Shown piece by piece: positions 274 through 26,293 of a DNA stretch of 40,801 nt; the stretch's first letter is position 1, and each line of letters begins with the position of its first letter. The notes under the pieces are model-generated. The model ran no database searches. It worked only from the letters and a program-made list of their open reading frames with translations, and was not told the DNA's origin. Source of the DNA: Deltaproteobacteria bacterium (lineage in GTDB: Bacteria; Myxococcota; Myxococcia; Myxococcales; JAHFDP01); contig JAHFDP010000037.1 of NCBI GenBank assembly GCA_023248955.1, forward strand, positions 1 to 40,801, given 5' to 3'. Position numbers and translations under genes: made by a program.

Positions 274-984
274 CTAAAGACACCCCTTCGTCGCGCCGTC
301 GGAGAGCACCGTACATTTCGCCGCTCCGTCGCAGACGCCCGAGCTGGTGCAATCCACCACGCAGCTAAAGCTGCTGTTCCCATTTGCAAGCTGCTCGCCC
401 ACGCAAAGGTCGCCAACGTCGCAGAGTGTCTGAACGTCAAGACCACAGCGTTTTCCGGTGCCAGCAACCGCTAGGCAAACCCCCAACGTCGGGTCGCCGA
501 GCAGGCCCATGCAACGTTGCGGATCGGGACATTCAATCTTGAGCGCTTTCAGGTGGCAGAGCGTGAAGCAGATTCCCGTGGCGTCGCCTTGTTGCAAGAG
601 GAGGCAATCGCTGTGCGTCGCGGGATCACAAAAGCGCCGCAAGTCCGGAGCGCATGCCGCGCCGTTGGTGGCCAGGTCGAGACACACGCCACGCGAATCG
701 CCGGGCGGGAGGGCGCAACGCTTGCCGCCGCTACAACGAGTGACGGCGGTTTCGGCAGTGCAGATCGGCGAGCAGAACCCGACGTCGTGCGCGGCATCGA
801 TGGGAACGCAAGCGAGCGACGAGAGGCAACCGCCGCCGCCGGGCATGCACCAATCGTCCTCCGGCTGCGGGCCGGCGTCCAAGGCGAAGGCCCGCGTACC
901 CGCGTCGGATGCGGCGCCCGGCGGCGGCGAGACGGTACAGGCGAGGAGCGAAAAGAGAACCGCTGGGCGCGCTACGGCAAACAA
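274..984 (-). CDS. cysteine-rich lipoprotein, function unknown
   Basis: This is a predicted lipoprotein of about 236 residues and the last gene of the minus-strand envelope cluster. A short hydrophobic signal ends in the lipobox SLLAC (Cys about 16). The mature part is rich in spaced Cys pairs, in the style of the small disulfide-bonded modules common in myxobacterial surface lipoproteins. I chose the TTG at 984 because it gives a normal lipoprotein signal and overlaps the upstream stop by only 13 bp. The ATG at 1050 would add a hydrophilic stretch of about 22 residues ahead of the signal and overlap by 79 bp. No clear ribosome-binding site precedes either start, so translational coupling to the upstream gene is likely. 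It resembles the preceding gene in style and may be a distant paralogue. No enzyme motif is visible. Confidence 0.7.
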   Translation of the reverse strand: MFAVARPAVLFSLLACTVSPPPGAASDAGTRAFALDAGPQPEDDWCMPGGGGCLSSLACVPIDAAHDVGFCSPICTAETAVTRCSGGKRCALPPGDSRGVCLDLATNGAACAPDLRRFCDPATHSDCLLLQQGDATGICFTLCHLKALKIECPDPQRCMGLLGDPTLGVCLAVAGTGKRCGLDVQTLCDVGDLCVGEQLANGNSSFSCVVDCTSSGVCDGAAKCTVLSDGATKGCL

Positions 985-1844
985 TAGGTATCCGTGCCGC
1001 CCGCCGTCTTGCACACCGTTCCGTCGGGGCAGGTGCTGGTGCTGCTGCAAAGATAGGCGCAGAGATTCGGAGGCTTATTGGGCTGGCCGAGTGCGCACAA
1101 GCCCGTCGTGCCTCCGGGACTGCCACAATCGCCATCGCCACCATCGGGGCCGCTGCCATTGCAGCTCTTGGCGCAAAAACGTTTCGCGCTTTTCGGATCC
1201 GCATCGAGGGTGATGCAGGTCAGATCGGACGTGCAATTGTTCGCCGCGCTGCAGCCTTGGCCCTCAGAACGCGCGCCCGGGGGCGGATTGCACGCGCCGC
1301 TTGGGGTGTCGCAGGTCGATCCAGCACCGTGCAGGTTGGCGCAATACGCGGTCGGATCCGGCTGGATGCCGCAACCGGGATAGCACGCCGTCTCGCCCGT
1401 CCCGGATTGGAAACAGAAATAGCCCGACCGTGTGCAGTCGGCATTGGAAGCACATTTTTGGTAGCAGACACCCGCGTCGGCCGCACCGGCGTCGGCACTG
1501 AGCTTCGGCAAGAGGCACGTCCCACTAGCCGGACAACCCGCCTTCGCTCCGTCGCAAGACGAAACGCAATAGCCGCCTACAAAGGTCTGCTGCGGCGTAC
1601 CGCAGAAGCGTCCCGTGCCCTCGAAGCAATCTGCGGTCGAAGCGCAGGCTCCGCCAAGCGGAGAGGTTCCGCCATCCGTCCCACCGTCGGTGCCTCCGTC
1701 GTCACTGCCTGCGCCGCCATCGGTTACGCCGGAATCGGTTACGCCGGAACCGCACGTCGAGCCGTCGGGGCAACCCTTCTTCGGGAGCGGATTGCAGGCG
1801 ATGAGCCCGAAAACCAGAAAAAAGCAAGTGTAGCGAGACGTCAT
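972..1844 (-). CDS. cysteine-rich lipoprotein with Gly-Thr-Asp linker
   Basis: This 290-residue predicted lipoprotein has a signal ending in the lipobox LIAC (Cys 17). A low-complexity Asp/Gly/Thr linker follows, then several Cys-rich modules with CxxxxxC spacing of the disulfide-bonded surface type. The start at 1844 is preferred over an in-frame ATG at 1886 because GGGAG lies about 7 nt upstream and the signal then begins at once. It overlaps the next gene by 13 bp, so the two are probably co-translated. The Asp/Gly linker recurs in the cytochrome lipoprotein upstream and in the large Ig-like protein at 22244. That points to a shared way of spacing domains away from the membrane in this organism. 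Ligand and function are unknown. Confidence 0.8.
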   Translation of the reverse strand: MTSRYTCFFLVFGLIACNPLPKKGCPDGSTCGSGVTDSGVTDGGAGSDDGGTDGGTDGGTSPLGGACASTADCFEGTGRFCGTPQQTFVGGYCVSSCDGAKAGCPASGTCLLPKLSADAGAADAGVCYQKCASNADCTRSGYFCFQSGTGETACYPGCGIQPDPTAYCANLHGAGSTCDTPSGACNPPPGARSEGQGCSAANNCTSDLTCITLDADPKSAKRFCAKSCNGSGPDGGDGDCGSPGGTTGLCALGQPNKPPNLCAYLCSSTSTCPDGTVCKTAGGTDTYCLP

Positions 1845-1953
1845 TAGCTGCTCCCGAAAGAAGTGGAAACAACTCACGCTAATCACCGTCAGTGGACACG
1901 GTCAAGCAAGAGTTCGCGTCGAGGGCGAGGCGCAAATATCGACCGATCGGCCG

Positions 1954-2475
1954 CTACTGCGGCGCCCCGCATTTGAGCCACGCCAAAATCCGCTTCTTGT
2001 CGGCCGTCGAAAGCGTCGCACCGCGCGGCATGCTCCCGCTCTGAATTCTCGAGCCGATGCTGCCAGCCCCACTATGAACCGCGCTGTAGTCGCTCTCGAA
2101 CGCGTGACAGGGCGTGCAACTCTTCGCGAAAAACTCCTGCGCGTAACCGGCCCAGTTGTCACTGGTGCAAGTCCCGCCGTCGTTCGTTCCGGCATCGCTT
2201 GTTCCGCCGTCCTCGATCACGCCGCCGTCTTCAATGGCACCGCCATCTTCGACACCGCCGTCGCCGGTGACGCACTGCTTGGCGCGGCAGACGAAGCCAT
2301 CTCTGCAATTGCTGTCTTGGGTGCATTGCGCGACGGACGCAACACAAGCGCCGCTCACGCAGCCCTGGCCCGCGGCGCAGTCGGACGACACCGCGCACAG
2401 GGCCCCGCCACCGCTCCCATCGAGAGAACAGGCCATTGGAAGAAGCGCGAGCGCAAGAAGAAGGAATCGAGACAT
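1954..2475 (-). CDS. lipoprotein with cysteine-rich module fused to a monoheme c-type cytochrome motif
   Basis: This 173-residue protein has three parts. A lipobox signal LPMAC (Cys 16) is followed by a Cys-rich segment (about 27-69) and an acidic Asp/Gly linker (about 71-102). The C-terminal domain carries a CxxCH heme-binding motif, CTPCH at 120-124. A downstream SGSMPRG segment offers Met 149 as a possible distal heme ligand, and the end, KRILAWLKCG, looks like the last helix of small c-type cytochromes. The likely role is electron transfer or heme-based sensing at the outer membrane or cell surface. I use the ATG at 2475, which gives the signal peptide; the frame is open up to 2724, but that part is antisense to nothing recognisable and encodes no signal. 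A 62-bp gap separates it from the barrel gene upstream. Confidence 0.8.
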   Translation of the reverse strand: MSRFLLLALALLPMACSLDGSGGGALCAVSSDCAAGQGCVSGACVASVAQCTQDSNCRDGFVCRAKQCVTGDGGVEDGGAIEDGGVIEDGGTSDAGTNDGGTCTSDNWAGYAQEFFAKSCTPCHAFESDYSAVHSGAGSIGSRIQSGSMPRGATLSTADKKRILAWLKCGAPQ

Positions 2476-2537
2476 TGTTGATGGAACGAGTCGGTTCCTC
2501 TTCACGATACAAGTGCGCGAGCCATTTTTAAAAGGGC

Positions 2538-3206
2538 CTAAAATCGCATTGCTAAGGCAACGTGAGCGACCGGGCCAGAAATCGAAATTTTTCCAGGCGT
2601 GGTGTTGGTGGTCGGAATTGCCGCGCCTGAACCAGCGGAAGCAGTGGCCCGTTCGAACCCCGGCGTGAACGAGAGCGGCCGCGCGAGAAGATAGCCGACT
2701 GAGCCCTCCAGCGAAATCCGCCATTGTCCCGGCTCGGGATTATTGAGACGCATGTCCACACCGGCGAGCGCTGCCGCGGCAACGCCAAAGGCCCAGCCGC
2801 CGCGCGCGGTCGCGAGATCCTCATTCAACCCCAGATGCCCTGCGACCATTCCGAGCTCGAGCGCGGCCGTTGGTTCGAATCGTTTGCTGCGCCGAAAACG
2901 CATGGTGCCGGTCGCGAACATTTCGTGGGCCGAAATGCTCGCGTTGCTGCTGACGAAGAGCGCGCCGCTCGATCCCGCGTAGTCGTACGCGACACCAATC
3001 TCGACGGGCGACCAGTCAAATTCGTAAGTGCTCGCCAAATGAAACGCGGGGAAGGTGCTCTGGTCCGAGGCCAAATCGAATCCCGGCGATCGCACGATCT
3101 GTTGCCGAACACCGACCTCGAGCCTCAGCGGATCGGCGACCTCGTCCGCGTGGGCGATTGCCGAAGCAATCATCGCCAGCGCTGCAACGACAATTTGTCT
3201 AGCCAT
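2538..3206 (-). CDS. predicted outer-membrane beta-barrel protein
   Basis: This 222-residue protein has a Sec signal (cleavage likely after AIAHA, near residue 20). It then shows alternating hydrophobic and polar strands and ends in ALAMRF, a terminal aromatic typical of barrel proteins recognised by the Bam machinery. The start is well supported: GGGGGA lies about 7 nt upstream. The upstream beta-propeller gene ends only 2 bp before it, so the two are translationally linked. No named barrel family is recognised, and size alone would fit an 8-10 strand barrel. Its place between propeller lipoproteins and a cytochrome lipoprotein suggests it may anchor or connect them, which is inference. Confidence 0.75.
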   Translation of the reverse strand: MARQIVVAALAMIASAIAHADEVADPLRLEVGVRQQIVRSPGFDLASDQSTFPAFHLASTYEFDWSPVEIGVAYDYAGSSGALFVSSNASISAHEMFATGTMRFRRSKRFEPTAALELGMVAGHLGLNEDLATARGGWAFGVAAAALAGVDMRLNNPEPGQWRISLEGSVGYLLARPLSFTPGFERATASAGSGAAIPTTNTTPGKISISGPVAHVALAMRF

Positions 3207-3208
3207 GG

Positions 3209-4714
3209 TTAATCCCCCGAGGCGGCGTCGACGACGCCCATGAGCAAGAAACCAGCAATGCGCCGGGCGGAGCCGCGTTGAAAATCGCCGAGCGGAATCA
3301 CGGTGACATCACCAAACGGATCAGCGGCGTCGGCGTAGGCGAAGTTTCCCGCGAGACCGACCGACCTCGGCTGCGTGTCGAGCTGGACCGAATCCGGTAC
3401 GGCGCTTCCGAGTGGCAAGCGCCACAACGCGGGCTCATCGCGCAGGACAAAAAGTTGCGCGCCCCCATCGGCGTCCAACGCGCTCGTGACCAGCGGCTGA
3501 TCCAACTCAACGGTGTGCGGCTTAGCGTGGAGCTTGGCGCTAGCGCTGTCACGCACGATGGCGAGCGTGGTCAGCGCGGGCGCGGCACCGTCCGGGAACG
3601 GCAATGCGGCGTGGCTGAAGAGTGCCAGTCCGCTCGTGAGCAAGGCCTCGGTACGGTACGGCGCGCCGAGCGGAACGGTGCCGAGCGTCCGCGCGCCGAG
3701 GTCCCAAAGGTAGGCCGCATCGCCGGTTCCGGTGAGCAGCACGACGGGAAACGCAGGCGCGCCCGAGGGCGCCGACGAAGGAAGACCAAGCACGGTGATG
3801 CCGCTTCCTGCTTGCGCGAGTGAAACGCGCAGCTCATTTTCCGAGCGGCCGTCGGCATCGAGAAGCGCCGCATCACCCGAAGCGTAGACGACGAGAACCG
3901 AGTTTGATGCCGATGCGATCGTGGCTATGGCGCGCGGGCCTCGGCCTCCCGCGAGAAAGTTGATGTGCCCCGAGAGCGTGCCGTCCGCGGCTTGCGTCAG
4001 CGCGATGGCGAAAACATCGTCCGAACCTGACGCCGTAAGAAAGAGGTGCAGCGCGTCGGTGCCGAAAACCGCATGCGCCGGAACGAGCGTGGCGCCGCCG
4101 AGCGTGAGATCGAGCTTCACCTGACGATCGGGGTGCGCCAGATCGATTACCGCAACGCCGCCGGTGAGGAGCACCGCGGCGTAACGGGGCGCGGCCCCGC
4201 TCGGCGAAAAAACCACTGCCGACGGAGACAGGCTGGAGGTGTCGAGAACCAACTTGCGAACGGTGTTGCCGGCGAGATCGACGACGGCGACTTCGTTGAG
4301 GTTGCGCACGCCCGCATGGGGCGACGAGGCGCCATAAGTGCAGACGGCATAGAGCGAATCCGTTGCGAAAGCGCACCGCCCGAATGACGCACCGAGCGCG
4401 AGCGTCGTCACCGGTTTTCCCGTAGCGTCAAAACGATCGAGCGATTTGGCCGCGCTGGAGAGCACCACCACACCATCTGGCAGAGCGTCGATCTCCACCG
4501 GCACGCCGGAGAGCCGCTGCGAACTCGAGGACGGGACCGCGGGATCGACGCGCACCAGCCGCGCATCGCTTGTGGCGTAGTAAATCGCGCCGGCGGCGCC
4601 CAGCGGAGGAAGCGACGTCAGCGCCACGTCGAACCGTGCACGGCGGCCACCGCAGGCGCTCAGCGCGAGCATCGCTGCTGTTGCGATGAACGCTTGTTTC
4701 GACAAAATCGACAT
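3209..4714 (-). CDS. beta-propeller lipoprotein (WD40/YVTN-like)
   Basis: This 501-residue predicted lipoprotein has the lipobox ALSAC (Cys 21) and a body of repeated blade-like units such as AIYYATSDARLVRVDP, VVLSSAAKSLDRFD and VAVVDLAGNTVRKL. That pattern matches YVTN/WD40-like propellers with weakly conserved blades. No catalytic motif is visible; a binding or scaffold role at the envelope is the reasonable reading. The start has GGAGA about 8 nt upstream. It lies 17 bp after another propeller lipoprotein and 2 bp before the barrel gene, so it is firmly inside an operon. Confidence 0.75.
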   Translation of the reverse strand: MSILSKQAFIATAAMLALSACGGRRARFDVALTSLPPLGAAGAIYYATSDARLVRVDPAVPSSSSQRLSGVPVEIDALPDGVVVLSSAAKSLDRFDATGKPVTTLALGASFGRCAFATDSLYAVCTYGASSPHAGVRNLNEVAVVDLAGNTVRKLVLDTSSLSPSAVVFSPSGAAPRYAAVLLTGGVAVIDLAHPDRQVKLDLTLGGATLVPAHAVFGTDALHLFLTASGSDDVFAIALTQAADGTLSGHINFLAGGRGPRAIATIASASNSVLVVYASGDAALLDADGRSENELRVSLAQAGSGITVLGLPSSAPSGAPAFPVVLLTGTGDAAYLWDLGARTLGTVPLGAPYRTEALLTSGLALFSHAALPFPDGAAPALTTLAIVRDSASAKLHAKPHTVELDQPLVTSALDADGGAQLFVLRDEPALWRLPLGSAVPDSVQLDTQPRSVGLAGNFAYADAADPFGDVTVIPLGDFQRGSARRIAGFLLMGVVDAASGD

Positions 4715-4731
4715 CGTGAATTCTCCGTTTC

Positions 4732-6420
4732 CTACTGCCCGATTTGACCGTTGAGCTCGAAACCCGTGACCGTCTGAATGGCCAGCGAATCCAGTGCGAG
4801 AAATGAAATGCGTCCGGCCGCGTGTTCTTGCGAGACGAAAACGCCGCGGCCACTGGCCGGGTCACCCGGCACTGGCGGGATCGGCCCGAGAAAGAGCGCG
4901 GGCGACTCCAGCCCAATCGGACGCGCCACGAGACTCCTGAGATCGAGTGCGGCCACGCTGCTCTCGCCCGACGTCGGCACCAAAAGAAGCGCCGCGAATC
5001 CTTCCGCCGCCGCGAAGACCACTGAGCGCGGATGCACCTCGCCGGTGAGTTGCAACGCCGACAGGCCAGTGTTGACGTCGAGCAGCGAATAGCCCTGTTG
5101 GAGCGCGACCTGGCGCTCATAGGGATCGGTCGCGGAAGAATTCGACTCGGCCTGATGAATGACCACGACGGTTCGGCCATCGGGCGAAGCAGCCACGGCG
5201 GCGACGCTCTTGGGTAGCGCGTAATCGATTAGCGTGCCGCTGGCGAGATCGAGGCGCGTGAGCTGGTCAATTGCCTCGGCGCCAGTGAAGAGCAGCGCGT
5301 AAGGACCAAGGCCCGCGGCGGCGGATCCTCCCGAGAGCACAGCCTGGCCAATGCGCCGGCCGCCAGCATCGATAATCGTAAGACCCGCTGCATTCGTGAG
5401 ATCAGCGGGAAGATGCGCAATGATGACTTTTCCCTCTGAGCGCAGCACCGCAACCGCTTGCGTACCGTCCGCCGACACCGCCAGATCTGTCGGTGCACCC
5501 GGCAACGTAATCTTCACCGCAACAGGCGGCGCCGCGTCGAGATCAATCGCGGTCAGCGCCGTGGACCCATTGGCGCGCAAAATCAAGAAACGACCGTCAG
5601 GCGTCGGCAGTGCAGAGCGCGCGGTCACGTCCGCGGAGACGTCGGCGGGCAGTGCCACATGCTGCGGTAGCGCTTGCGCAGCCAGGTTCTGCAAATCGAA
5701 AATGTTGAGCCCATCCTTCGCCAGCAGCGCGGCACGAATCGCTTTTCCATTCTGCACGCGGAAGAACGCGTCGGTGGTACGGTAACCGCTGGCCCGCTCG
5801 TAGACGGCGTGCGTTCCAGCGCGCAGTGCAGCAACATCAACGAGCGCGGCCGTAGAGATCCCCGAAGGCGTGCCGCTCAAGGATCGCGACCAGGCCAAGG
5901 CCCAGCTTCCATCTGGCGAAAGCGTGAGCGTGTCGTAGTCGCGTCCGAGAGGCTGAACGCGCGGCGCACCGACATCCTCGATGGCAACGATCGCTTGGCT
6001 TCCCGGCGACAACGCCACGGCCGCGTCGACATCAGGCAACGCCGCGAGGCCTTTCACGCCTGCTGGAACGGTGGCGACATCGACCGCGCGCGACGCAATG
6101 TTGATGCGGGCGACGTCGCTGTCGTTGGCGATGGCCCATACATCGTGCGGCGAAGCGACGGGCGGCGTTCCCGCGGGGTCCGAGTGCTGCTCGGGCGGCA
6201 AGTCGACGCAATCGCCTGCGCGGCACGTTCTTCCCAGCCCGCATTCGGAAGCAGTTGCACACCTCGCCGCTCCGGCATCGCTGCTGCCGTCTCCGGGTGC
6301 TGTCGTTCCACCGCCATTCGTGTCTTTCGCCGCCTCGCCGGGAGCGTATCGCGTGGCGGAAGGTGGAGCCGACATGCAACCGGCAACAGACAAGACAACC
6401 GTTAGGAACCAAATCCGCAT
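4732..6420 (-). CDS. beta-propeller lipoprotein with N-terminal Cys-rich segment
   Basis: This 562-residue predicted lipoprotein is the first gene of the minus-strand cluster. The signal ends in SVAGC (Cys 15). A Gly/Thr/Asp-rich linker leads to a short Cys-rich piece (CATASECGLGRTC). A long propeller follows, with blades such as LALSPGSQAIVAIED, LTLSPDGSWALAWS and VAASPDGRTVVVIHQ of the YVTN/PD40 style. The start at 6420 is chosen over an ATG at 6477 because GGGGAG sits 8 nt upstream and the signal begins immediately. It is probably a sister of the next gene, possibly with a shared partner. Its ligand is unknown. Confidence 0.75.
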   Translation of the reverse strand: MRIWFLTVVLSVAGCMSAPPSATRYAPGEAAKDTNGGGTTAPGDGSSDAGAARCATASECGLGRTCRAGDCVDLPPEQHSDPAGTPPVASPHDVWAIANDSDVARINIASRAVDVATVPAGVKGLAALPDVDAAVALSPGSQAIVAIEDVGAPRVQPLGRDYDTLTLSPDGSWALAWSRSLSGTPSGISTAALVDVAALRAGTHAVYERASGYRTTDAFFRVQNGKAIRAALLAKDGLNIFDLQNLAAQALPQHVALPADVSADVTARSALPTPDGRFLILRANGSTALTAIDLDAAPPVAVKITLPGAPTDLAVSADGTQAVAVLRSEGKVIIAHLPADLTNAAGLTIIDAGGRRIGQAVLSGGSAAAGLGPYALLFTGAEAIDQLTRLDLASGTLIDYALPKSVAAVAASPDGRTVVVIHQAESNSSATDPYERQVALQQGYSLLDVNTGLSALQLTGEVHPRSVVFAAAEGFAALLLVPTSGESSVAALDLRSLVARPIGLESPALFLGPIPPVPGDPASGRGVFVSQEHAAGRISFLALDSLAIQTVTGFELNGQIGQ

Positions 6421-6653: not shown

Positions 6654-6740
6654 GGCCCTCTGGCGAAACTGGCAGACGCGACAGACTCAAAATCTGTTTC
6701 CTTCACGGGAGTCTCGGTTCAATTCCGGGGAGGGCCACCA
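6654..6740 (+). tRNA. tRNA-Leu (anticodon CAA)
   Basis: A complete class II tRNA with an encoded CCA end. The acceptor stem GGCCCTC (6654-6660) pairs with GAGGGCC (6730-6736), followed by discriminator A and CCA. The anticodon stem ACAGA/TCTGT closes the loop CTCAAAA, which places CAA as the anticodon reading UUG. A long variable arm (TTCCTTCACGGGAG) and a T loop TTCAATT with a 5-bp stem complete the leucine-type cloverleaf. The next gene begins only 16 bp after the CCA, so the tRNA may be cut out of a longer transcript. Confidence 0.97.
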
Positions 6741-7503: not shown

Positions 7504-7574
7504 CACCACCCGCGCCTACGTCGCACCACATCGCCTTCCTTGCTCCCTCGGCAGGGAATCCCAACAACTAGGGT

Positions 7575-8801
7575 GTGACGCCTACGCTCCTCCTCGTTCG
7601 TCCGCCAGACAAGGCTTGGCCCGCTGGCCTGGCTGCGCGGCTCTTGGCGCACGGTTTCTTGGTCGAGGAGATCACGCCCGACGATCTGGCGCAGCGTTGG
7701 GCGCTGCGACCGCAGGCCATCGCAGTGGCCAGGCCAGCGCTCGCTCGCAGAATTCACGAGCAGGGAGGCCTGGTGTTGGCGGTCGGGCCGGGCGCGCTTT
7801 CGCTGGCGGAGTTCGGCGCGGAAGCAGCGACCACGGAGGATGCAGACGAAATTGCCGCGCGGGCCCGTGGATTGTGGATTCGCCGGCGGCGGTCGGTGCG
7901 CACCGTTGTTGCGGCTTCGGAAGTTCCGCGCGAGCGACCGCTGGTTTTGCACATCGAGGACGACGCGGACACACGCGATCTGATGGCTGATATACTCAGT
8001 ACCGATCACGAAATCCTCGCGGCGGCCACTGGGGAAGCGGGTTTGCGGCTTTGCCTCGAGCATCAACCCGATCTGGTTCTCCTCGATCTGACGCTGCCCG
8101 ACCGCGATGGCGTCTCGGTTCTTTTGCAACTTCACGACGACATGCGAACGCGCGGGATTCCGGTGGTGGTCATTTCCGGGCGCAGCGACACGTCGACCAA
8201 AGTCCGCACCTTGGCGCTTGGCGCCGCGGATTTTTTGGAGAAACCCTATTCGCCCGAGGAGCTTCTCGCGCGGCTCGAGCGCACGCTGGCGCTGGCCGCG
8301 CAGCACAAGCAACTTCGCTCGCTGGCGGACACCGATGCGTTGACAGGCCTGCCGAATCTGCGGGCCTTCCGCGCGCGACTCGACGAAGAGGTGCAGCGGG
8401 CACGTCGCTACGGCACACCGCTCGCGTGCGCGATGCTTGACGTGGATAATTTGAAGGCCCTCAACGATGCGCGCGGGCACGCCACCGGCAACCGCGCGCT
8501 GCAGGTGGTGAGCGATGTGCTCCGCGAGCAGCGACGCGCCACCGATTTCGCCGCGCGATTTGGCGGCGATGAATTTGTGTTGCTCTTGCCGCACACCCGC
8601 GGCGCGGAAGCCGGCGCGTTGGCGGAACGCGTACGCGCGGCGCTGAAGGAACGCTCCGCTGAACAAGGCGTTCCGCTCGATGCCTCGGTAGGAATCGCCG
8701 AGCGCCAAGGCGTGGTCGAAGCCGACGCATTGTGTGCAGCCGCCGACGAGGCGCTCTACGCTGCCAAGGCCGCCGGACGCGGCTGCACGAAAATCGCCTA
8801 G
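7575..8801 (+). CDS. response regulator with GGDEF diguanylate cyclase domain
   Basis: This 408-residue cytoplasmic regulator is predicted to make c-di-GMP from GTP when phosphorylated. Residues 1-110 look like a degenerate receiver fold without the phospho-acceptor Asp. Residues 122-240 are a proper receiver, with acidic pair D129/D130, phospho-acceptor D171 in LLDLTLP and the conserved Lys in LEKPYS (K223). The GGDEF domain (about 245-408) has an intact RFGGDEF active site (330-334). An RxxD product-inhibition site, RATD (321-324), lies exactly five residues before it. Enzyme activity and feedback inhibition are therefore both expected. Translation starts at GTG. No partner kinase is next to it. 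Confidence 0.93.
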   Translation: MTPTLLLVRPPDKAWPAGLAARLLAHGFLVEEITPDDLAQRWALRPQAIAVARPALARRIHEQGGLVLAVGPGALSLAEFGAEAATTEDADEIAARARGLWIRRRRSVRTVVAASEVPRERPLVLHIEDDADTRDLMADILSTDHEILAAATGEAGLRLCLEHQPDLVLLDLTLPDRDGVSVLLQLHDDMRTRGIPVVVISGRSDTSTKVRTLALGAADFLEKPYSPEELLARLERTLALAAQHKQLRSLADTDALTGLPNLRAFRARLDEEVQRARRYGTPLACAMLDVDNLKALNDARGHATGNRALQVVSDVLREQRRATDFAARFGGDEFVLLLPHTRGAEAGALAERVRAALKERSAEQGVPLDASVGIAERQGVVEADALCAAADEALYAAKAAGRGCTKIA

Positions 8802-18273: not shown

Positions 18274-21189
18274 ATGCGATCCGCCGTCGTGCTCGCTTGC
18301 GCGCTCGTTGCACGCACTGCGCTGGCCTACGATCCCGCCTACCAGTGGCGCACGCTGGAAACGGCGCACTTCCAAATTCACTTTCACCAGGGCGAAGACG
18401 AGGCCGCGCAAGGCGCCGCCCGCGCCGCCGAGCGCGCCTTCCGCACACTCACGCCGCTCCTCGGACACGAACCGAGCACCACGCAAATTGTCATCTCCGA
18501 CGACACCGATGACGCCAACGGTTCGGCCACGCCGTTTCTCACCAACACGATTCGATTGAACGGCGTGCCGCCCGATTCGCGCGGCGAGCTGAACGATTTC
18601 GACGAATGGCTCTGGCTCCTCGTCTCGCACGAGTTCACGCACATCGTGCACCTGGACACCATCGGCGGCATTCCGAAAATCATCGACGCACTCTTCGGAA
18701 AGATTCTCGCCCCCAACGATCAGCAGCCGTTGTGGTTCATTGAGGGGCTCGCCGTTTACGAGGAGAGTCGCAACTCCGGCGGTGGGCGCGCGCGCAGTAC
18801 GCTCGAGGAGATGCAGCTGCGCGCCGCGGCCCTAGAAGGTCGGCTCTTTCCGATCGACAAGCTTTCCAATTCGCCGCTGGAGTGGCCACGCGGGCCCGCG
18901 GCTTACCTCTATGGCGGACGGTTTTTAGAATTCATCGCGCGACGACATGGCGAGGCTGCACTCGCCGGCATCAGCCACGATTACGGCCGGCGACTCATTC
19001 CGTTTGCGCTCAACGCCGTCGCCGAAAGTCAGACCGGCGAGAGCTACCTGGAGATGTATGACGAATTTATACAAAGTATTACAGCTGATTCGGAGCGCCA
19101 GGCCAGCGTCGTGCGAGCCCAAGGTGAAACGCCAACCGTTCAACTCACGCTCGAGGGAGAAATCGCGCAGACGCCCCGGTGGCGGGCGGATGGCGGCGCG
19201 CTCTATTACGCCTTTCACGGCGCCGATCGAAAACCCGAGTTGCGCGAAATTTCGTTGCCCGTCGCGAATGCGCCACCGCAAATTCGCCGCATCAGCGAGA
19301 CGGTGAGCACTCCTCAAGTTGCGGTGGCACCTGACAAAATGTTGATCGTGGCGCGCGCGGAAGTTTTTCACGAATACGAAAATTACCAAGACCTCTGGCG
19401 CGTCGATCCCCAGCACGGCAACGAACAACGTCTCTCGTGGGGCCTGCGTGCCAGCGATCCCGACGTGGGTCCCGACGGCACCATCGCCTTCGTGAAGCGC
19501 GAGCCCGGTGGACACACGGTGATCGCCGCGCGCGATACCGCGAGCACAATCCGAGTGCTTCATCAACCGCCAGGACTCGAGCCGGTGGCCGCGCCGCGGA
19601 TATCACCGAGCGGGCGCGAGGTCGCTTTCGTGGAGCATCAAAATGTTGGATGGCGCATTCGCCTGCTCGATCTGGCAAGCGGCGCCACACGCGATATTGC
19701 ACCCGATCCCACGCCCGGCCTTCAGCAACTTGATCCCGCATTTTCGCCCGACGGCCGCACGCTCTACTTCTCAAGCGATCGCACCGGTATCTCCAACATC
19801 TACGAAATCGACCTGGCCACCGGTGGTTTGCAACAGATCACGAATGTAATCGCCGGTGCCTTCCAACCCGCGCCCAGCCCCGACGGCAAACAGATCGCCT
19901 TCGTGACCTACTCCGCCATTGGCTACGACTTGGTGCTGGCGACGATCGAGCCGCGTGATCCATTGCAACCGATCCCGTCCGCGGAAAGCGAAGCGTCGCT
20001 CGAAACGCGCTCGCCGGAAGCAGCATCCGAAAAAAACGAAACCGCGCCGACACCGCGCCCCTACTCACCGCTGACCACGCTGCTCACCGGTTACCGCCTC
20101 CCGTTTCTTGGCGTCGATCCCTTCGGCACCACGCTCGGCCTCTCCTTCGGCAGCGCCGATGTGGTGGGGCTTCACTCCTACGCCGCCAGCGTGTTCGGCG
20201 GCCTCGCCTCGCGCCAGCCCGGCTTCTCGCTCGTCTACGGCTACCACGGGTGGCGCATCGATCTGTCGAGCGGCCTGTCGCGCGATCTCGAGCACGCAGC
20301 TGGCGCGCCGAGCGTCTTTGTCGACGATACGTGGCGCGGTTTCGTCGGCGGCGCTCTACCCTTCACCACACTCGATCACGCGCAAGAGCTTAGCCTTCGT
20401 TACGATTTGGCGTTTCGATCGCTGTTCGAAAATCCCGATCCGAAATGGCGTCCCTTCAGGCCGGTCCTCGGGCGCGCCGCCGCGCTCACCGCCTCGTGGC
20501 GATTCGCCTCCGCCAAACGCTTTCCCAATTCCATCAGCGCCGAAGAGGGTTTCACCGTCGGACTTTCCGCAAGCGCGTCGGATCCAAAACTCGGCAGCAA
20601 CCGCGGTTTTGCCTCTCGCTTGCTGCTGGCAAGTGTAGCGCACTACCTGCGATTGCCATTCGAAACGATGGACGACCGTCCGCTGCACCACGTCCTGGCG
20701 TTGCGAATCTCAGGCGGCGTCGGCTCGGGTGATGCAGGCCGCCGTCCACTCTTCGGGCTTGGCGGAATCGCTCCACTCGACCCCCTTTCGTTTCTCACGG
20801 GCGCCTCGAACACCAGCTCGCTCACTTTGCGCGGCTACCCGTTCGATCCCGCGCTGGGCGTGCCTTTCGTGGGATCCGCTGTTGTGCTTGGATCCGCGGA
20901 ATATCGCTTTCCACTCTGGAGCGACGGCGCCGGGCTCTGGACGCTTCCGGTCTATCTGCGACGCCTCCACGCCGCTTTTTTCGCCGACGCCGGCGACGCG
21001 TTCGATCCACATCATCGCCCGCGCTTGAAAGTCGGCGTGGGCGGCGAACTGCGCTGGGAGCTGTCTCTGGCCTACAACTTGGTCACCGCGCTGCGCGTGG
21101 GTTACGCGCGCGGGCTCTCGCCGGTCTGCGGCGCCAACCACGACGGCGCGTGCAACGATCTTTTCGCTGCGCTGGGCGGAAATTTTTAA
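18274..21189 (+). CDS. exported metalloprotease - TolB-like propeller - outer-membrane barrel fusion
   Basis: This 971-residue exported protein has a signal peptide (cleavage near ARTALA) and three regions. A peptidase-MA-like gluzincin domain (about 20-270) has zinc motif HEFTH (119-123) and the downstream Glu in FIEGLAVYEES (157). A TolB/PD40 beta-propeller (about 285-560) has blades such as SPDGRTLYFSSDRTGISNIY. The C-terminal part (about 590-971) is an Omp85-like barrel of repeated amphipathic strands ending in Phe. The protease would thus be tethered to the outer membrane. It starts 11 bp after the hub gene and is probably in the same transcript. The substrate is unknown. Confidence 0.88.
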   Translation: MRSAVVLACALVARTALAYDPAYQWRTLETAHFQIHFHQGEDEAAQGAARAAERAFRTLTPLLGHEPSTTQIVISDDTDDANGSATPFLTNTIRLNGVPPDSRGELNDFDEWLWLLVSHEFTHIVHLDTIGGIPKIIDALFGKILAPNDQQPLWFIEGLAVYEESRNSGGGRARSTLEEMQLRAAALEGRLFPIDKLSNSPLEWPRGPAAYLYGGRFLEFIARRHGEAALAGISHDYGRRLIPFALNAVAESQTGESYLEMYDEFIQSITADSERQASVVRAQGETPTVQLTLEGEIAQTPRWRADGGALYYAFHGADRKPELREISLPVANAPPQIRRISETVSTPQVAVAPDKMLIVARAEVFHEYENYQDLWRVDPQHGNEQRLSWGLRASDPDVGPDGTIAFVKREPGGHTVIAARDTASTIRVLHQPPGLEPVAAPRISPSGREVAFVEHQNVGWRIRLLDLASGATRDIAPDPTPGLQQLDPAFSPDGRTLYFSSDRTGISNIYEIDLATGGLQQITNVIAGAFQPAPSPDGKQIAFVTYSAIGYDLVLATIEPRDPLQPIPSAESEASLETRSPEAASEKNETAPTPRPYSPLTTLLTGYRLPFLGVDPFGTTLGLSFGSADVVGLHSYAASVFGGLASRQPGFSLVYGYHGWRIDLSSGLSRDLEHAAGAPSVFVDDTWRGFVGGALPFTTLDHAQELSLRYDLAFRSLFENPDPKWRPFRPVLGRAAALTASWRFASAKRFPNSISAEEGFTVGLSASASDPKLGSNRGFASRLLLASVAHYLRLPFETMDDRPLHHVLALRISGGVGSGDAGRRPLFGLGGIAPLDPLSFLTGASNTSSLTLRGYPFDPALGVPFVGSAVVLGSAEYRFPLWSDGAGLWTLPVYLRRLHAAFFADAGDAFDPHHRPRLKVGVGGELRWELSLAYNLVTALRVGYARGLSPVCGANHDGACNDLFAALGGNF

Positions 21190-21474: not shown

Positions 21475-21690
21475 ATGAAATCTCATATAAGTGCTACGAT
21501 CGACCACGAACTCGTTGCCGCCCTCCAGTCCCTCCGCAAGCGCGAACGTCGTTCGCTTTCCAATCTGATCGAAACCGCGCTCGCGGAGTATCTCGAGAAG
21601 CGACAGACCAGCGACGCCATCGTCTCCTCGCCAGGAAAATTCGACGGCCGCTTCTCGCGACGGGAGACGTATGCGCGAACCCGCCGGTAG
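21475..21690 (+). CDS. vapB: ribbon-helix-helix antitoxin (VapB-like)
   Basis: This 71-residue protein has a ribbon-helix-helix start (HISATIDHELVAALQSL, then SLSNLIETALAEYLEKR) that would bind DNA as a dimer. A basic, disordered tail (about 50-71) of the kind that wraps the toxin follows. The ATG at 21475 is chosen because the fold begins there; an upstream in-frame GTG at 21400 would add unrelated sequence. It overlaps the PIN toxin gene by 20 bp, the usual antitoxin-first arrangement. The family name VapB is used loosely: the fold is CopG/RHH. Confidence 0.85.
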   Translation: MKSHISATIDHELVAALQSLRKRERRSLSNLIETALAEYLEKRQTSDAIVSSPGKFDGRFSRRETYARTRR

Positions 21691-22120
21691 ATGTCTCATC
21701 GATACGAACGTCTTGATTTACGCAACGCTGAGCGATGACGCTCGGCACCTCACGGCGCTTCGCGTGCTGGAGTGGGCACGCCAAGGTTCCATCGAAGCGG
21801 TCGTCTCCGTGCAAAACCTTGCCGAAATGTTTCCGAACCTCACCGGCCCCAAACGCAAACCGCCCGATGCGCCCGAGTTGGCGCGGCGGAAGATCGAATC
21901 CATCGCGCGACTTCGCTACCTGAGCGTTTTGCCGATTACCCCCGCTACGGTGCTTCAAACGCTCGCACTTTGTGCCGCCCACGGCATTCGCCAGCAGGAC
22001 TACTTCGATGCCCAACTCGCGGCGACGATGCTGGAGCACGAAGTACCTACGGTCATAACCGAGGATCCGGGCGTGTTTTCGAAATTCGCCAAGGTGCACA
22101 CCTACAATCCATTTCGTTGA
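21671..22120 (+). CDS. vapC: PIN-domain toxin (VapC-like ribonuclease)
   Basis: This 149-residue PIN-domain protein is likely a Mg-dependent RNase that blocks translation when its antitoxin is lost. The acidic active-site residues are visible: D11 in LIDTNVLIYA, E52 in NLAEMF, D110/D113 in QQDYFDAQLAA and D132 in TEDPGVF. GGGAG lies 5 nt before the ATG. It appears intact. tRNA or rRNA cleavage is known for the family but cannot be predicted here. Confidence 0.92.
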   Translation: MREPAGRCLIDTNVLIYATLSDDARHLTALRVLEWARQGSIEAVVSVQNLAEMFPNLTGPKRKPPDAPELARRKIESIARLRYLSVLPITPATVLQTLALCAAHGIRQQDYFDAQLAATMLEHEVPTVITEDPGVFSKFAKVHTYNPFR

Positions 22121-22207
22121 CGCTTTTTGTTCGTTGGGAGGTCGAGCAAAACCGCGAAATATCAATCGCCGCGTCGGACCACGTACTACAACGTCATACA
22201 CCAAAAC

Positions 22208-22237
22208 TTGACCCGAGCCCCAGGCGACCCGGATAAT
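22208..22237 (+). promoter_or_regulatory. sigma-70-like promoter positioned for a leaderless mRNA
   Basis: TTGACC (22208-22213) and GATAAT (22232-22237) are separated by 18 bp. Initiation about 7 nt past the -10 box would fall on the ATG at 22244. No ribosome-binding site lies between, only AT-rich sequence. The transcript of the large surface-protein gene may therefore be leaderless. Confidence 0.5.
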
Positions 22238-22243
22238 TTTTCC

Positions 22244-25200
22244 ATGCGCAAACACCTCGGAATTGCCGCTCTTTTCCTGATCTGCGCCCACTGCTCCTCG
22301 CCCAAAACTTTCACCCTTCAAATCGACGCGCCAAAGTCGAATCTCGACCAGGGCGGCAAGGGCATCGTCAACGTCCACGCCTTCTCGCGCACCAGCGACA
22401 ACGGTTCGCCGTCTCCGGTCTCCGGAACCGTGGCGCTGACCGTCAACCAGAATGGATCGATCGATCCCGGAAGCGTGACGCTCGACAGCAACGGCTCGGG
22501 TGCGGCGGTCTTCACCATGTGCGCCAGCGGGAGCACCTGCATCCCCGGCGCGCTGGCGCTCGTGGAAGGAACGCTCTCCACCAACGGCCAGACCGTGCGC
22601 GGCGGAACGGTGTTTCTCTTGAATGGAACGCCACCGGTCATTGACGACGGTGGAACCGACGACGCCGGCAGCGATGGCGGCAGCGCGGACGGGGGCGTGG
22701 ACGGCGGCGCCGACGCGGGCACGCCAACGGCCAGCGTTAAGCTCGATCTCTTCCTCGCCACCGGCGAACCCTTCAACGCCGCCCGCGCGCCGATGAGCGG
22801 CGACCCACTTCTCGTCCGCGCCACCGTCACCGACGCCAACACCAAGGCGCCGCTCACCGGAGTGGCGGTGTTGTTCGAAGCGACCAACGGCATCGGCGTC
22901 TTCTCGGTGCACGCGAGCGCGGACGCTGGCACCAGCGACGCCGGCACGGCTTCGCTCTCCATCACCAGCGACAATTCGGGATTCGCCACCGCCCTCTTCG
23001 CGCCCGGAGACACGCAGACCGCCGGCGCCATGCGCGTCACTTCGCTCGGCGTAGTCGCCGCGCTTCCCTTCACCATCGTCGGCCCGGGCGTGCTCAGCTT
23101 TACGCCCGGCGCGACCGACAACTTCCAGCACGTGATGGGCGTCAAGTCGAGCGGCTGGCGCGAAGTGAACCTGATGCGCTTTCAGCTCCTCGACACCACC
23201 GGCCTGCCCTACCTCGGCAAGGCGACCGTCACCTTCAACATGCCGCAGACCAGCGGCGCCACGCTCTCTCCCACCACCGCCACCATCAACGCCAACGGCG
23301 AAGTCTTGACCGCCATCAACAGTGGCTATGGCGCCGGCACCGTGTCGGTCACCGCCACCACCACCGTCAACACCATCAAACTGACCACGCAGTCGGACAC
23401 CGTGGCCATCGTGGGTGCCAAGGCCAACGGACGAAACCTCGCCGTGAAATGCGATCGCTACGCGCTGCCCGCGCTGGTCGGCAACGACTGCAGCTTCATG
23501 CGCTCGGACTACACCGTGAACTGCACCGCGGTCCTCGGCGATCGCTTCAACAACACGCTGGGCCGCTCCACGCGCGTCTTCTGGCAGTCGGAAGCCGGCC
23601 TCTTTGGACCGCCGTCGCTCACACCCGACGCATCGCCTGACGTCGATCCGGTGAGCCAAGCGGGCCTCGGCCGCACCACCAACTCGCTGCGTACACTCAA
23701 TACACGTCTGCCCTCGGACGTCACGCCCTTCTCCGGCGAACCCAGCATCGTCGGCTCGCTCTCCGATCCCTGCCTCTCGGGAAACACCGCACGCACCTTC
23801 AATCCGCGCGACGGCCTGGTTACCTTCATCGCCTACACGCAGGGCGAAGAGGGCTTCATCGATCTCAACGCCAATGGCCAATACGATCTCGGCGAACCGT
23901 TCTTCGATCAAGGCGAGCCTTTCATCGACGCCAACGACAACGACGTGTGGGACCCGGGCGAGACCTTCATCGACATCAATGGTGACAGCGTCTACAACGG
24001 GCCCAACGGCAAGTGGGACGCCGACACCACCATCTGGACAACAGGTCACGTGGTGGTCACCGGCAATCCCACGGCGACCTGGGTTCCCGCACCGATCATT
24101 CTTCCGGCCTCCGCGGGTGCAACGCTTCCCTTTAACGTGCGCTGGTCCGACGCCAACTTGAACGAGCCGGCGCCCTTCTTCTCGAACTACAGCCTAGCCA
24201 TGGGCTCGGGAACCGGCGGCGTTTCGCTGCTCAGCTTCCCGACCTTCAGCGATCACTTCTCCTCGATGGGCGTCTTCCAGACCACGCTCTGCGATCAGAC
24301 CACCAACATCTGCCGCTTGCAGACGCGCTTCACCTTCGACCAGTCGCCGGAAGTTTTTGGCCTCTACACCGCTCCGGGCGCCGCGCCGTTTAGCGGCACC
24401 ATTCGATCACTCGTGCAGCAAGACGCGCTTACCTTGGCGTCCGACAGCTCCAGCGCCCAAGGCAACGGCGGCGGCGTGGTCGGCGGCAACGATGCCGGTG
24501 TCAGCGACGGTGGCGCCAGCGACGCGGGCAGCGCAGATGGCGGCGCAGGCGACGGCGGCTCCGACGGTGGCACCGTTTTGCAATCGGTCAACGTGCAGGT
24601 CGATCTCCTCCTCGCCACCGGTGAAGTCACGGCCGCACGCCGCGCCGTTCTCTCCGGCGATCCACTCACTGTACGCGCCACGGTCACCGACAAAGTCACC
24701 GGTGTTCCCGCGCCCAACGCCAGCGTGCTCTTCGAAACCACCAACGGCATCGGTAATTACAATGTAGGTACAAACGGCGGCGGCGGCGCGGCGAGCGCAA
24801 CCGTGGTCACCGGCGGCAACGGCGTCTCCACCACCGTCTTCACGCCGTCCGCGGCGCAGACCAGCGGCGTCATTCGTGTCACCGTCAACGGCAACGTCTC
24901 GTCACTCAACTTCGCCATCGTCGGCCCCGGCCAGCTCAGCTTCACGCCCGGCGGCACCGACAACTTCGTTCACGTGATGGGCGTGACCTCCAGCGGCTTC
25001 AACGAGCAGAACGTGGTGCGCTTCCGCCTGGTTGACACGTCGGGCCTCCCTTACAACGGCAACGCCACGGTAACCTTCACCATGCCCACCACCAGCGGCG
25101 CGTCCATTAGCCCCAGCTCGGTGATCGTCGACGCCAACGGTGAAGCGGTGACCACCGTGCACAGCGGCGTTGGCGTCGGATCGGCCGCCGTGACCGCCAA

Positions 25201-26293
25201 GACCACCATCGGCAGCCTCACGCTCACCACGCAGTCGGACACCATCGCCATCGTCGGCGCCAAAGCGAACGGCCGCAACTTCGCGGTGAGCTGCAGCCGC
25301 TACGCCTTGCCAGGCCTGGTCGGGAACGACTGCAGCTTCATGCGCGCGGACTACACCGTGAACTGCACCGCGGTCCTCGGCGATCGCTTCAACAATACAC
25401 TCGGTGTATCCACGCGCGTCTTGTGGGAATCGGAAGCCGGCCTCTTCGGACCGCCGTCGTTCACGCCGCTCGCTTCGCCCGACAGCGATCCGGTGAGCCA
25501 AGTTGGGCTAGGCCGCACGCAAAACTCGCTGCGCACGCTCAACTCGCGCTTGCCACTCGACGTCACCCCGATCAGCGGCGAGCCCAGCGTGGCCGGCTCG
25601 TTGTCCGACCCCTGCCTCACCGGCAGCACCGTGCGTACCTTCAATCCACGCGATGGCCTGGTGACCTTCATCGCCTACACGCAGGGAGAAGAGGGCTTCA
25701 TCGATCAAAACAACAACGGAAAATACGATTCCGGCGAGCCCTTCTTCGATCAGGGCGAGCCCTACATCGACGCCAACGACAATGACACGTACGACGCTGG
25801 CGAGACCTTCATCGACGTGAACGGAGACGGCGTCCACAACGGCCCCAACGGAACGTGGGACGCCAACACCACCATCTGGACCACCGGCCACATCGTGATG
25901 ACCGGCGGACCCTCCGCAACGTGGAGCCCGCAACCCATTGCACTGCCACAAGTCGCCAGCGCCACGCGTAATTTCACCATCCGCTGGGCCGACGAGAACC
26001 TCAACGAACCGTCGCCCTCCTTCACGACCTACAGCCTCTCGATGCTGTCGGGCACGGGCATCATTCAGCTGCTCTCGCCCTCCAGCTACGCCGATCACTT
26101 CTCCTCGATGGGCGTCTACCAAGTGACGAGCTGCAACAGCAGCAACGTCTGCAGCTTGCTGACGCACTTCACGTACGATCAGAGTGCGGAAGTGTCGGGG
26201 TTCTACACCGCACCATCGGCGGCGCCGTTCTCGGGATTGGTGGGCGCGGCTTGTTTGCAGGATTCGATTACGAGCAACTCGTCGAATCAGTAG
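22244..26293 (+). CDS. large Ig-like (Big-1-type) surface lipoprotein with duplicated halves
   Basis: This 1349-residue exported protein has a signal ending near Cys 14/Cys 17 (FLICAHCSS), so lipidation is likely but the lipobox is imperfect. An N-terminal Ig-like domain (about 25-135) is followed by an Asp/Gly/Ala linker. A first half spans about 164-732, then comes a second linker (about 745-780), then a second half (about 781-1349). Each half starts with a Big-1/invasin-like Ig domain (VRATVTD.., VLFE.TNGIG) and contains a run of Asp-Asn-Gly loops (about 538-592 and 1152-1209; e.g. DANDNDVWDPGETF) that look like calcium sites. Adhesion or a structural surface role is inferred from fold only. 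It converges on the HupE-like gene with 31 bp of AT-rich DNA between. Confidence 0.85.
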   Translation: MRKHLGIAALFLICAHCSSPKTFTLQIDAPKSNLDQGGKGIVNVHAFSRTSDNGSPSPVSGTVALTVNQNGSIDPGSVTLDSNGSGAAVFTMCASGSTCIPGALALVEGTLSTNGQTVRGGTVFLLNGTPPVIDDGGTDDAGSDGGSADGGVDGGADAGTPTASVKLDLFLATGEPFNAARAPMSGDPLLVRATVTDANTKAPLTGVAVLFEATNGIGVFSVHASADAGTSDAGTASLSITSDNSGFATALFAPGDTQTAGAMRVTSLGVVAALPFTIVGPGVLSFTPGATDNFQHVMGVKSSGWREVNLMRFQLLDTTGLPYLGKATVTFNMPQTSGATLSPTTATINANGEVLTAINSGYGAGTVSVTATTTVNTIKLTTQSDTVAIVGAKANGRNLAVKCDRYALPALVGNDCSFMRSDYTVNCTAVLGDRFNNTLGRSTRVFWQSEAGLFGPPSLTPDASPDVDPVSQAGLGRTTNSLRTLNTRLPSDVTPFSGEPSIVGSLSDPCLSGNTARTFNPRDGLVTFIAYTQGEEGFIDLNANGQYDLGEPFFDQGEPFIDANDNDVWDPGETFIDINGDSVYNGPNGKWDADTTIWTTGHVVVTGNPTATWVPAPIILPASAGATLPFNVRWSDANLNEPAPFFSNYSLAMGSGTGGVSLLSFPTFSDHFSSMGVFQTTLCDQTTNICRLQTRFTFDQSPEVFGLYTAPGAAPFSGTIRSLVQQDALTLASDSSSAQGNGGGVVGGNDAGVSDGGASDAGSADGGAGDGGSDGGTVLQSVNVQVDLLLATGEVTAARRAVLSGDPLTVRATVTDKVTGVPAPNASVLFETTNGIGNYNVGTNGGGGAASATVVTGGNGVSTTVFTPSAAQTSGVIRVTVNGNVSSLNFAIVGPGQLSFTPGGTDNFVHVMGVTSSGFNEQNVVRFRLVDTSGLPYNGNATVTFTMPTTSGASISPSSVIVDANGEAVTTVHSGVGVGSAAVTAKTTIGSLTLTTQSDTIAIVGAKANGRNFAVSCSRYALPGLVGNDCSFMRADYTVNCTAVLGDRFNNTLGVSTRVLWESEAGLFGPPSFTPLASPDSDPVSQVGLGRTQNSLRTLNSRLPLDVTPISGEPSVAGSLSDPCLTGSTVRTFNPRDGLVTFIAYTQGEEGFIDQNNNGKYDSGEPFFDQGEPYIDANDNDTYDAGETFIDVNGDGVHNGPNGTWDANTTIWTTGHIVMTGGPSATWSPQPIALPQVASATRNFTIRWADENLNEPSPSFTTYSLSMLSGTGIIQLLSPSSYADHFSSMGVYQVTSCNSSNVCSLLTHFTYDQSAEVSGFYTAPSAAPFSGLVGAACLQDSITSNSSNQ
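22736..26290 (+). repeat. intragenic duplication of about 1.8 kb
   Basis: The two halves of the surface-protein gene are direct repeats about 1.84 kb apart. Stretches such as CTACACCGTGAACTGCACCG are identical in both (at 23509 and 25351), while other parts have diverged at DNA and protein level. That suggests an old duplication kept partly uniform by selection or recombination. Confidence 0.85.

Follow-up and report, generated by a model that had tools for sequence, protein, structure and literature searches.

Envelope beta-propellers, lipoprotein-barrel pairs of the outer membrane and electron conduits supply the closest described counterparts of the gene block reported here, which is predicted to encode two beta-propeller lipoproteins (G1 and G2) and an outer-membrane barrel (G3). 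BamB and TolB are both smaller propellers, with eight and six blades respectively, and act with BamA or Pal, while the propeller 1l0q has seven blades. RcsF is small and is not a propeller, and porin-cytochrome conduits consist of multi-haem cytochromes and a large barrel encoded in one conserved operon. The G1-G2-G3 block is located on a contig of 40,801 nucleotides (JAHFDP010000037.1, positions 1 to 40,801 of the forward strand; hereafter the window, meaning this whole stretch) from a Deltaproteobacteria bacterium of the Myxococcota (GCA_023248955.1), an assembly of 3.83 Mb in 116 contigs. In the same phylum, the TraA-TraB system of Myxococcus xanthus is described as an operon with a 4-bp gene overlap whose TraA product is a surface protein with TIGR04201 Cys repeats (PMC3325183), and the Glt/CglB gliding machinery of Myxococcus combines outer-membrane proteins with the lipoprotein CglB (PMC3169522). 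A review covers both RcsF-OmpA, a lipoprotein displayed with a small barrel, and Slam, a TPR domain joined to a 14-strand barrel (PMC7857515).

Six genes, all encoded on the minus strand and numbered G1 to G6 from upstream to downstream, occupy positions 274-6420 of the window; five of them (G1, G2, G4, G5 and G6) carry lipoprotein signals, while G3 codes for the barrel. G1 (6420-4732; 562 amino acids (aa); lipobox LSVAGC) comprises a linker, a four-Cys knob, a predicted large beta-propeller and a conserved C-terminal tail. It is followed after 17 bp by G2 (4714-3209; 501 aa; lipobox LALSAC), the homologous second propeller lipoprotein, and this after 2 bp by G3 (3206-2538; 222 aa), which has a cleavable signal peptide, a C-terminal Phe and a predicted 8-strand outer-membrane barrel. 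An earlier note on this stretch had recorded six same-strand genes for five lipoproteins and one barrel, two beta-propellers, a CTPCH motif in one gene and spacings of 2-17 bp between the first three genes, and each of these points is borne out, the propellers for G1 by AlphaFold2 and for G2 by profile homology to G1, the barrel by a model of G3 and the motif in G4. That note had further treated all six genes as one set. This stands for G1, G2 and G3, with G3 present in 30/31 G1 genomes and the three together in 30/30 loci with room downstream, and falls for G4, G5 and G6, which are absent from other triplet loci; scattering of the genes among relatives, looked for in 195 genomes and in 99 relatives, affects G4-G6, which are dispersed or lineage-specific, and leaves the triplet together.

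G1, G2 and G3 are best explained as the functional unit, a three-gene operon inherited as a block in one order across the Myxococcota. Single-protein searches of 99 relatives, a sample in which the window's own family is represented by the window's genome, identified G1 in ten genomes and G2 in eleven (window's genome counted), with G2 located directly downstream of G1 in 10/10 G1 genomes. Although such searches matched G3 beside G2 in two genomes besides that of the window, a barrel protein with a signal peptide directly follows G2 in 9/9 of the other loci when these are read, most of them being too diverged for a single-sequence search. As such, adjacency, common strand and the order G1, G2, G3 are shared by the window and nine relatives, and 4-bp start/stop overlaps are found between G1 and G2 in 5/10 loci and between G2 and G3 in 6/10.

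Profile searches were extended to 195 Myxococcota genomes, with thresholds for strong matches chosen by eye from the match lists (E < ~1e-40 for G1, ~1e-20 for G2, 5e-7 for G3 and ~1e-8 for the haem domain of G4). Strong matches were obtained to G1 in 31 genomes, to G2 in 29 and to G3 in 30; no genome among the 195 had a strong G2 or G3 without G1, and G3 was present in 30/31 G1 genomes (Fisher p ~1e-32 to 1e-34 for triplet co-occurrence, phylogeny ignored). At the looser E<=1e-3 the counts rise to 62 (G1), 71 (G2), 40 (G3) and 48 (haem domain), the weaker matches to the profiles being mostly to a partial propeller, Cys-knob or barrel. With the profiles of the triplet genes, scoring was limited by a first-look filter to 7, 8 or 15 candidates in each genome, and relatives may have escaped it. 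Two G1 genomes are without a strong G2: the contig of genome G123 ends 109 bp past G1 (locus L058), which accounts for the absence of both G2 and G3, while in genome G193 G1 and G3 are separated by 1,798 bp left unfilled by the G2 model. In genome G150, G3 sits on another contig.

A scan of the genomes of 84,980 species with the G1 alignment, which depends on two short peptide patterns and partly overlaps the 195-genome set, returned 39 loci, 38 of them with G1 by profile. Their titles are those of Myxococcota-type, 'Deltaproteobacteria' or 'Proteobacteria' metagenome-assembled genomes, none plainly outside that group. A G3 match was found in 30 of the 38 loci (27 with the first model and three more with a larger one; weakest, L092 at 7e-9), whereas the other eight reach the contig end first, including L082, where the remaining 580 bp are too short for a whole barrel gene. 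The G1-G2-G3 order is thus kept in 30/30 scan loci with room for G3. The alignments drawn from these loci (A4 to A6) omit the repeat-contig loci L057, L063, L064, L067, L068, L070 and L072, genes that are split or carry frameshifts (L083, L093 and L094; the G2 of L073, L074, L089 and L092), contig-cut G2s and L095, where the match is limited to a 31-residue tail and neither G2 nor G3 was seen.

We consider it likely from this gene order and co-occurrence that the three products form a complex. The alternative, in which three separate envelope proteins are co-regulated and never associate physically, draws on the fact that the complex is read from genes, but strict order, near-perfect co-occurrence throughout the phylum and frequent 4-bp overlaps make it distinctly improbable. 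Some loci depart from the simple arrangement. G1 is tandemly duplicated ahead of G2 and G3 in L075 (8053-11356) and in genome G112 (C6:31215-34420), the protein in the G2 slot of L089 (11804-12931) and L082 (5175-6146) scores better against the G1 profile than the G2 profile, and in L088 (125-4655) the tail of one G1 is followed on its contig by G2, G3 and another G1, an arrangement suggestive of neighbouring triplets.

The AlphaFold2 model of G1 is a propeller (mean predicted local distance difference test score (pLDDT) 88.5; predicted template modelling score 0.86) extending over residues 88-552 (4765..6159, minus strand). DSSP assigns 39 strands of at least three residues within 93-552, making up ten four-strand (a-b-c-d) groups when a two-residue strand near 88 is counted as the first strand. 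G1 is therefore predicted to be a large lipid-anchored propeller of about ten blades by strand count, and ten strand groups are too many for a seven-bladed protein of the YncE or 6-phosphogluconolactonase type. The best whole-domain overlays are with eIF3b and eIF2A (Z 16.3 to 16.9; root-mean-square deviation (rmsd) 3.7 to 4.6; 363-365 residues), of which eIF2A is reported to be nine-bladed (PMC4125824). By sequence, the G1 profile finds its best PDB match in the archaeal S-layer propeller 1l0q (E 2.3e-22). Similarity to YVTN/YncE-like models extends to 22/39 G1 members for TIGR03866 and 17/39 for beta_rpt_yvtn at E<=0.1, and the G1 of the window matches neither. A model of N2O reductase, L-NosZ, is matched by 13/39 members (up to 1.7e-8; no match for the window member), which we take as general propeller similarity, and the assignment to that enzyme was rejected.

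Between lipid and propeller, the lipobox Cys15 (codon 6376..6378, minus strand; invariant in a 10-row alignment) is followed by a linker, 17-43 residues long in 26 rows (median 29.5) and with a median of 83 % of its residues small or polar, which is rich in Gly, Ser and Ala in the window. Downstream of it lies a disulphide-type knob, C54-C60-C66-C71 (6208..6261, minus strand), whose four Cys are invariant in 10/10 homologues and complete in 29 of the 33 rows that reach this region. The knob resembles the TIGR04201 Cys repeat, matched by 11/39 members at E<=0.1, a repeat defined on the surface receptor TraA (PMC3325183). The protein ends in the tail GFELNGQIGQ (4735..4764, minus strand), with conserved G553, F554, L556, N557 and I560; across 39 rows, T550, T552, G553, L556 and N557 do not vary, and model confidence drops here to 57 and then 33. 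The residue at position +2 after the lipidated Cys is M, A, G, S, N or E and never Lys or Asp, the residues reported for inner-membrane lipoproteins of M. xanthus and E. coli, respectively (PMC3546991).

G2 is homologous to G1 over about 440 columns (profile comparison E 5e-37, probability 99.9), and it is through this profile homology that its propeller fold is assigned. No linker follows its lipidated Cys, which is found in CGxRG or a similar sequence in most near relatives and in forms such as CWEDDRP in distant ones. Furthermore, the G2 profile weakly matches TolB chains (best E 2.9e-5). These two features, together with the membership of BamB, as a lipoprotein, in the outer-membrane beta-barrel assembly machinery (BAM) complex, favour the main rival to a surface role, a BamB- or TolB-like complex for envelope assembly or maintenance that faces the periplasm, with G1 and G2 on the inner leaflet folding or positioning G3 or tying it to the cell wall. 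The family is, however, found in about a sixth of the genomes (31/195), unlike a housekeeping factor, and the long tether and disulphide knob of G1 suit a surface protein, so that we regard the periplasmic alternative as somewhat unlikely.

G3 is predicted to be an 8-strand outer-membrane barrel of the OmpA/NspA type. Its model (pLDDT 88.0) has as nearest folds NspA (1p4t; Z 17.1, rmsd 2.6, 153 residues aligned) and OmpA (Z 16.7), and 13/29 G3 members match OMP_b-brl at E<=0.01. The last strand ends at residue 221 of 222, and the C-terminal peptidoglycan-binding domain of full-length OmpA is not present. Since a closed barrel of eight strands is too narrow for a sizeable channel, the role of an anchor, or of a partner in lipoprotein display, is likelier for G3 than that of a pore. 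The same narrowness bears on an uptake function, in which the propellers would act as lactonase-like enzymes or binding proteins that process small nutrients and feed them to the barrel. Some members do weakly match lactonase, YncE and pyrroloquinoline quinone-associated propeller models, but the lactonase model is matched by just 5/39 G1 members at E<=0.01, the barrel would offer no useful pore and neither a transporter nor an enzyme gene was found to accompany the triplet when open frames up to 9 kb away were compared between 42 loci, which makes nutrient uptake improbable. No conserved fourth gene of any kind emerged from these frames: the largest shared family occurs in six loci, with no constant distance or strand, and includes the response-regulator/GGDEF gene of the window (7572-8801).

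The reading that we prefer, tentatively and with a confidence just below the midpoint, is that G3 seats the two propeller lipoproteins at the outer membrane, probably at the surface, the set acting as a receptor that binds a ligand or as an adhesin. The three proteins would form a single outer-membrane complex in which the barrel holds two different propellers, G2 directly at the membrane, as no linker follows its lipid, and G1 on a flexible tether of 17-43 residues with its disulphide knob. At its C-terminus, the tail of G1 may serve as a strand that docks onto G2 or G3. The propellers would face outward and bind a polymer, the surface of prey or kin, or a matrix. The tether and the knob, and a +2 residue that is neither Lys nor Asp, favour an outer-membrane and, less firmly, a surface location, and the wide faces of propellers favour the binding of a partner. 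Display of G1 and G2 at the surface appears evenly balanced, linker and knob being suggestive of it, and the receptor or adhesin role is possible at somewhat less than that balance. The surface complex proposed by the earlier note is as such plausible for G1-G3, and not for all six genes. A wider version, unlikely in full, would see here a new phylum-level outer-membrane complex of the Myxococcota. In it, two homologous propeller lipoproteins of roughly ten blades each would pair as a heterodimer and be presented on the cell surface by an 8-strand barrel of their own, as an operon-borne display route, and would recognize other cells, prey or matrix.

Several points weigh against the preferred receptor or adhesin reading. 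The structure predictions are of single chains, and of G1 and G3 only; an outward rather than periplasmic orientation is argued from linker, knob and analogy, and propellers as a class have no fixed function. The G3 homologues are 14-21 % identical to the protein of the window, which suits a scaffold and yields no functional residue. Most of the genomes searched (164/195) are without a strong G1, from which it follows that the triplet is non-essential. Against the reading of the adjacent gene G4 as a mere neighbour, genomes with a strong match to its haem domain carry G1 above chance (10/21; p 2.7e-4, phylogeny ignored), an overlap that is perhaps due to shared ancestry.

G4 (2475-1954, minus strand; 173 aa; lipobox LLPMAC), located 62 bp downstream of G3, encodes a Cys-rich lipoprotein with a C-terminal mono-haem cytochrome c domain, and is a neighbour outside the conserved unit. 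Its haem-attachment motif, CTPCH (2104..2118, minus strand), belongs to a domain in which a Trp, CxxCH, a distal MP and a second Cys are invariant in 10/10 aligned homologues, a conserved domain that combines CxxCH with a distal Met being the mark of class I cytochromes c. Cytochrome_CBB3 (Pfam) is weakly matched by 8/10 members of the domain alignment at E<=1, with the window member below the cut-off, and the source genome carries cytochrome c assembly proteins (PF01578). G4 is thus very likely a real mono-haem cytochrome, covalent haem attachment being predicted from the motif. It also weakly matches G1, as both carry the same kind of Cys repeat. The family to which it belongs (window 1954-2475; genomes G001, G156, G008 and others) consists of short Cys-rich or Gly/Ser-rich lipoproteins that end in the 73-residue mono-haem domain, with additional conserved Cys at C103 (nearly) and C169 (fully; G4 numbering).

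On the strength of this gene, the earlier note had proposed electron transfer or redox sensing through the outer membrane by all six products. In favour of such a conduit are the quality of the G4 cytochrome, the above-chance overlap of haem-domain and G1 genomes and the transcription signals: a scan found one promoter-like site upstream of G1 (6555-6528) and seven terminator-like sites, numbers not above those in shuffles, and none of the terminator-like sites lies between G3 and G4, so that G4 may share the transcript of the triplet. However, the haem domain shares a contig with the triplet in the window only, except for the single chromosome of genome G005, where they are 2.5 Mb apart, and it is elsewhere dispersed, a single genome (G001) having as many as 14 matches. 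No cytochrome-like CxxCH gene is found on the same strand beside the triplet in any other locus, and the 8-strand barrel is far smaller than those of known porin-cytochrome systems. As G4 is linked to the triplet in the window alone, the electron-transfer reading is unsupported, and the six-gene conduit, rejected on the synteny of G4, G5 and G6, is extremely improbable. G4 looks rather like a member of a dispersed cytochrome c family that has come to lie beside the triplet by chance.

G5 (1844-972, minus strand; 290 aa; GLIAC) begins 109 bp beyond G4, and G6 (984-274, minus strand; 236 aa; TTG start; SLLAC) overlaps its end by 13 bp. Both encode Cys-rich lipoproteins and, judged by homologue searches, are lineage-specific neighbours: at E<=1e-6, homologues of G5 were found in 4/99 genomes and of G6 in 2/99 (own included), none of them at other triplet loci. 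A G5 paralogue, 42 % identical, is encoded elsewhere in the same genome (G000:C114:10447-11187).

Upstream of G1, a tRNA-Leu gene (6654-6740) lies on the strand opposite to G1-G6 and was the sole match in an Rfam scan of the window. Searched singly against Pfam and NCBIfam, G1, G2 and G3 each fell below the cut-off. A 69-bp tandem repeat is present three times at the extreme contig end (1-215), its copies 99 % alike, and probably marks an assembly break point. Two long open frames of 1388 and 851 codons overlap on opposite strands at 22127-26293 (+) and 21494-24049 (-), both lacking Pfam matches at 1e-5, and a protein of 971 aa encoded at 18274-21189, distant from the triplet, contains PD40 propeller repeats. 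A phage or plasmid origin of G1 was considered and rejected: a search of viral contigs gave six pattern matches and zero relatives, PHROGs gave zero matches and a plasmid search was without a match.

No publication describing the triplet was found by titles and abstract openings in the open-access literature, which agrees with the earlier note, whose author recognized no described system here. The folds and parts are of known kinds, as in outer-membrane complexes of lipoprotein and barrel, while their combination is not. Nine- or ten-bladed propellers appear to be uncommon; two homologous ones served by a barrel of their own would make up a new arrangement. A phylum-wide block of unannotated genes is a good entry point into unknown envelope biology and, should G3 indeed display G1 and G2, would offer a compact model for the way in which large lipoproteins reach the outside of the cell in the Myxococcota. 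The reading of the haem gene is corrected at the same time, G4 belonging to a separate, dispersed cytochrome family.

Set against the described systems, the triplet differs from a porin-cytochrome conduit in having an 8-strand barrel and, beside it, a single mono-haem gene that is not conserved with it, and G3, with 222 aa and eight strands, is not a Slam. G1 shares sequence similarity with YVTN/YncE-type propellers such as 1l0q and departs from them in its roughly ten strand groups. BamB and TolB resemble G1 and G2 as envelope beta-propellers, BamB also as an outer-membrane lipoprotein; neither G1 nor G2 gave a match to the BamB family, and whereas BamB and TolB have BamA and Pal as partners, the surroundings of the triplet contain no conserved family. 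The likeness to the Glt/CglB machinery, of outer-membrane proteins with a myxobacterial lipoprotein, is one of parts; no sequence relation was found, though none was looked for, and the triplet loci share no neighbour gene. RcsF-OmpA comes nearer in pairing a lipoprotein with an OmpA-type barrel, and display by G3 is proposed by analogy with it, although the periplasmic domain of OmpA has no counterpart in G3. TraA-TraB likewise resembles the triplet as a myxobacterial operon with a 4-bp overlap, which encodes a Cys-repeat surface protein and an envelope partner. PA14 and PF00691 are not among the Pfam matches (E<=0.01) of the 39 members of the G1 alignment (A4) or the 29 of the G3 alignment (A6), whereas PA14 is found in TraA, together with MYXO-CTERM, and the OmpA/MotB domain PF00691 in TraB; G1 is a predicted lipidated propeller.

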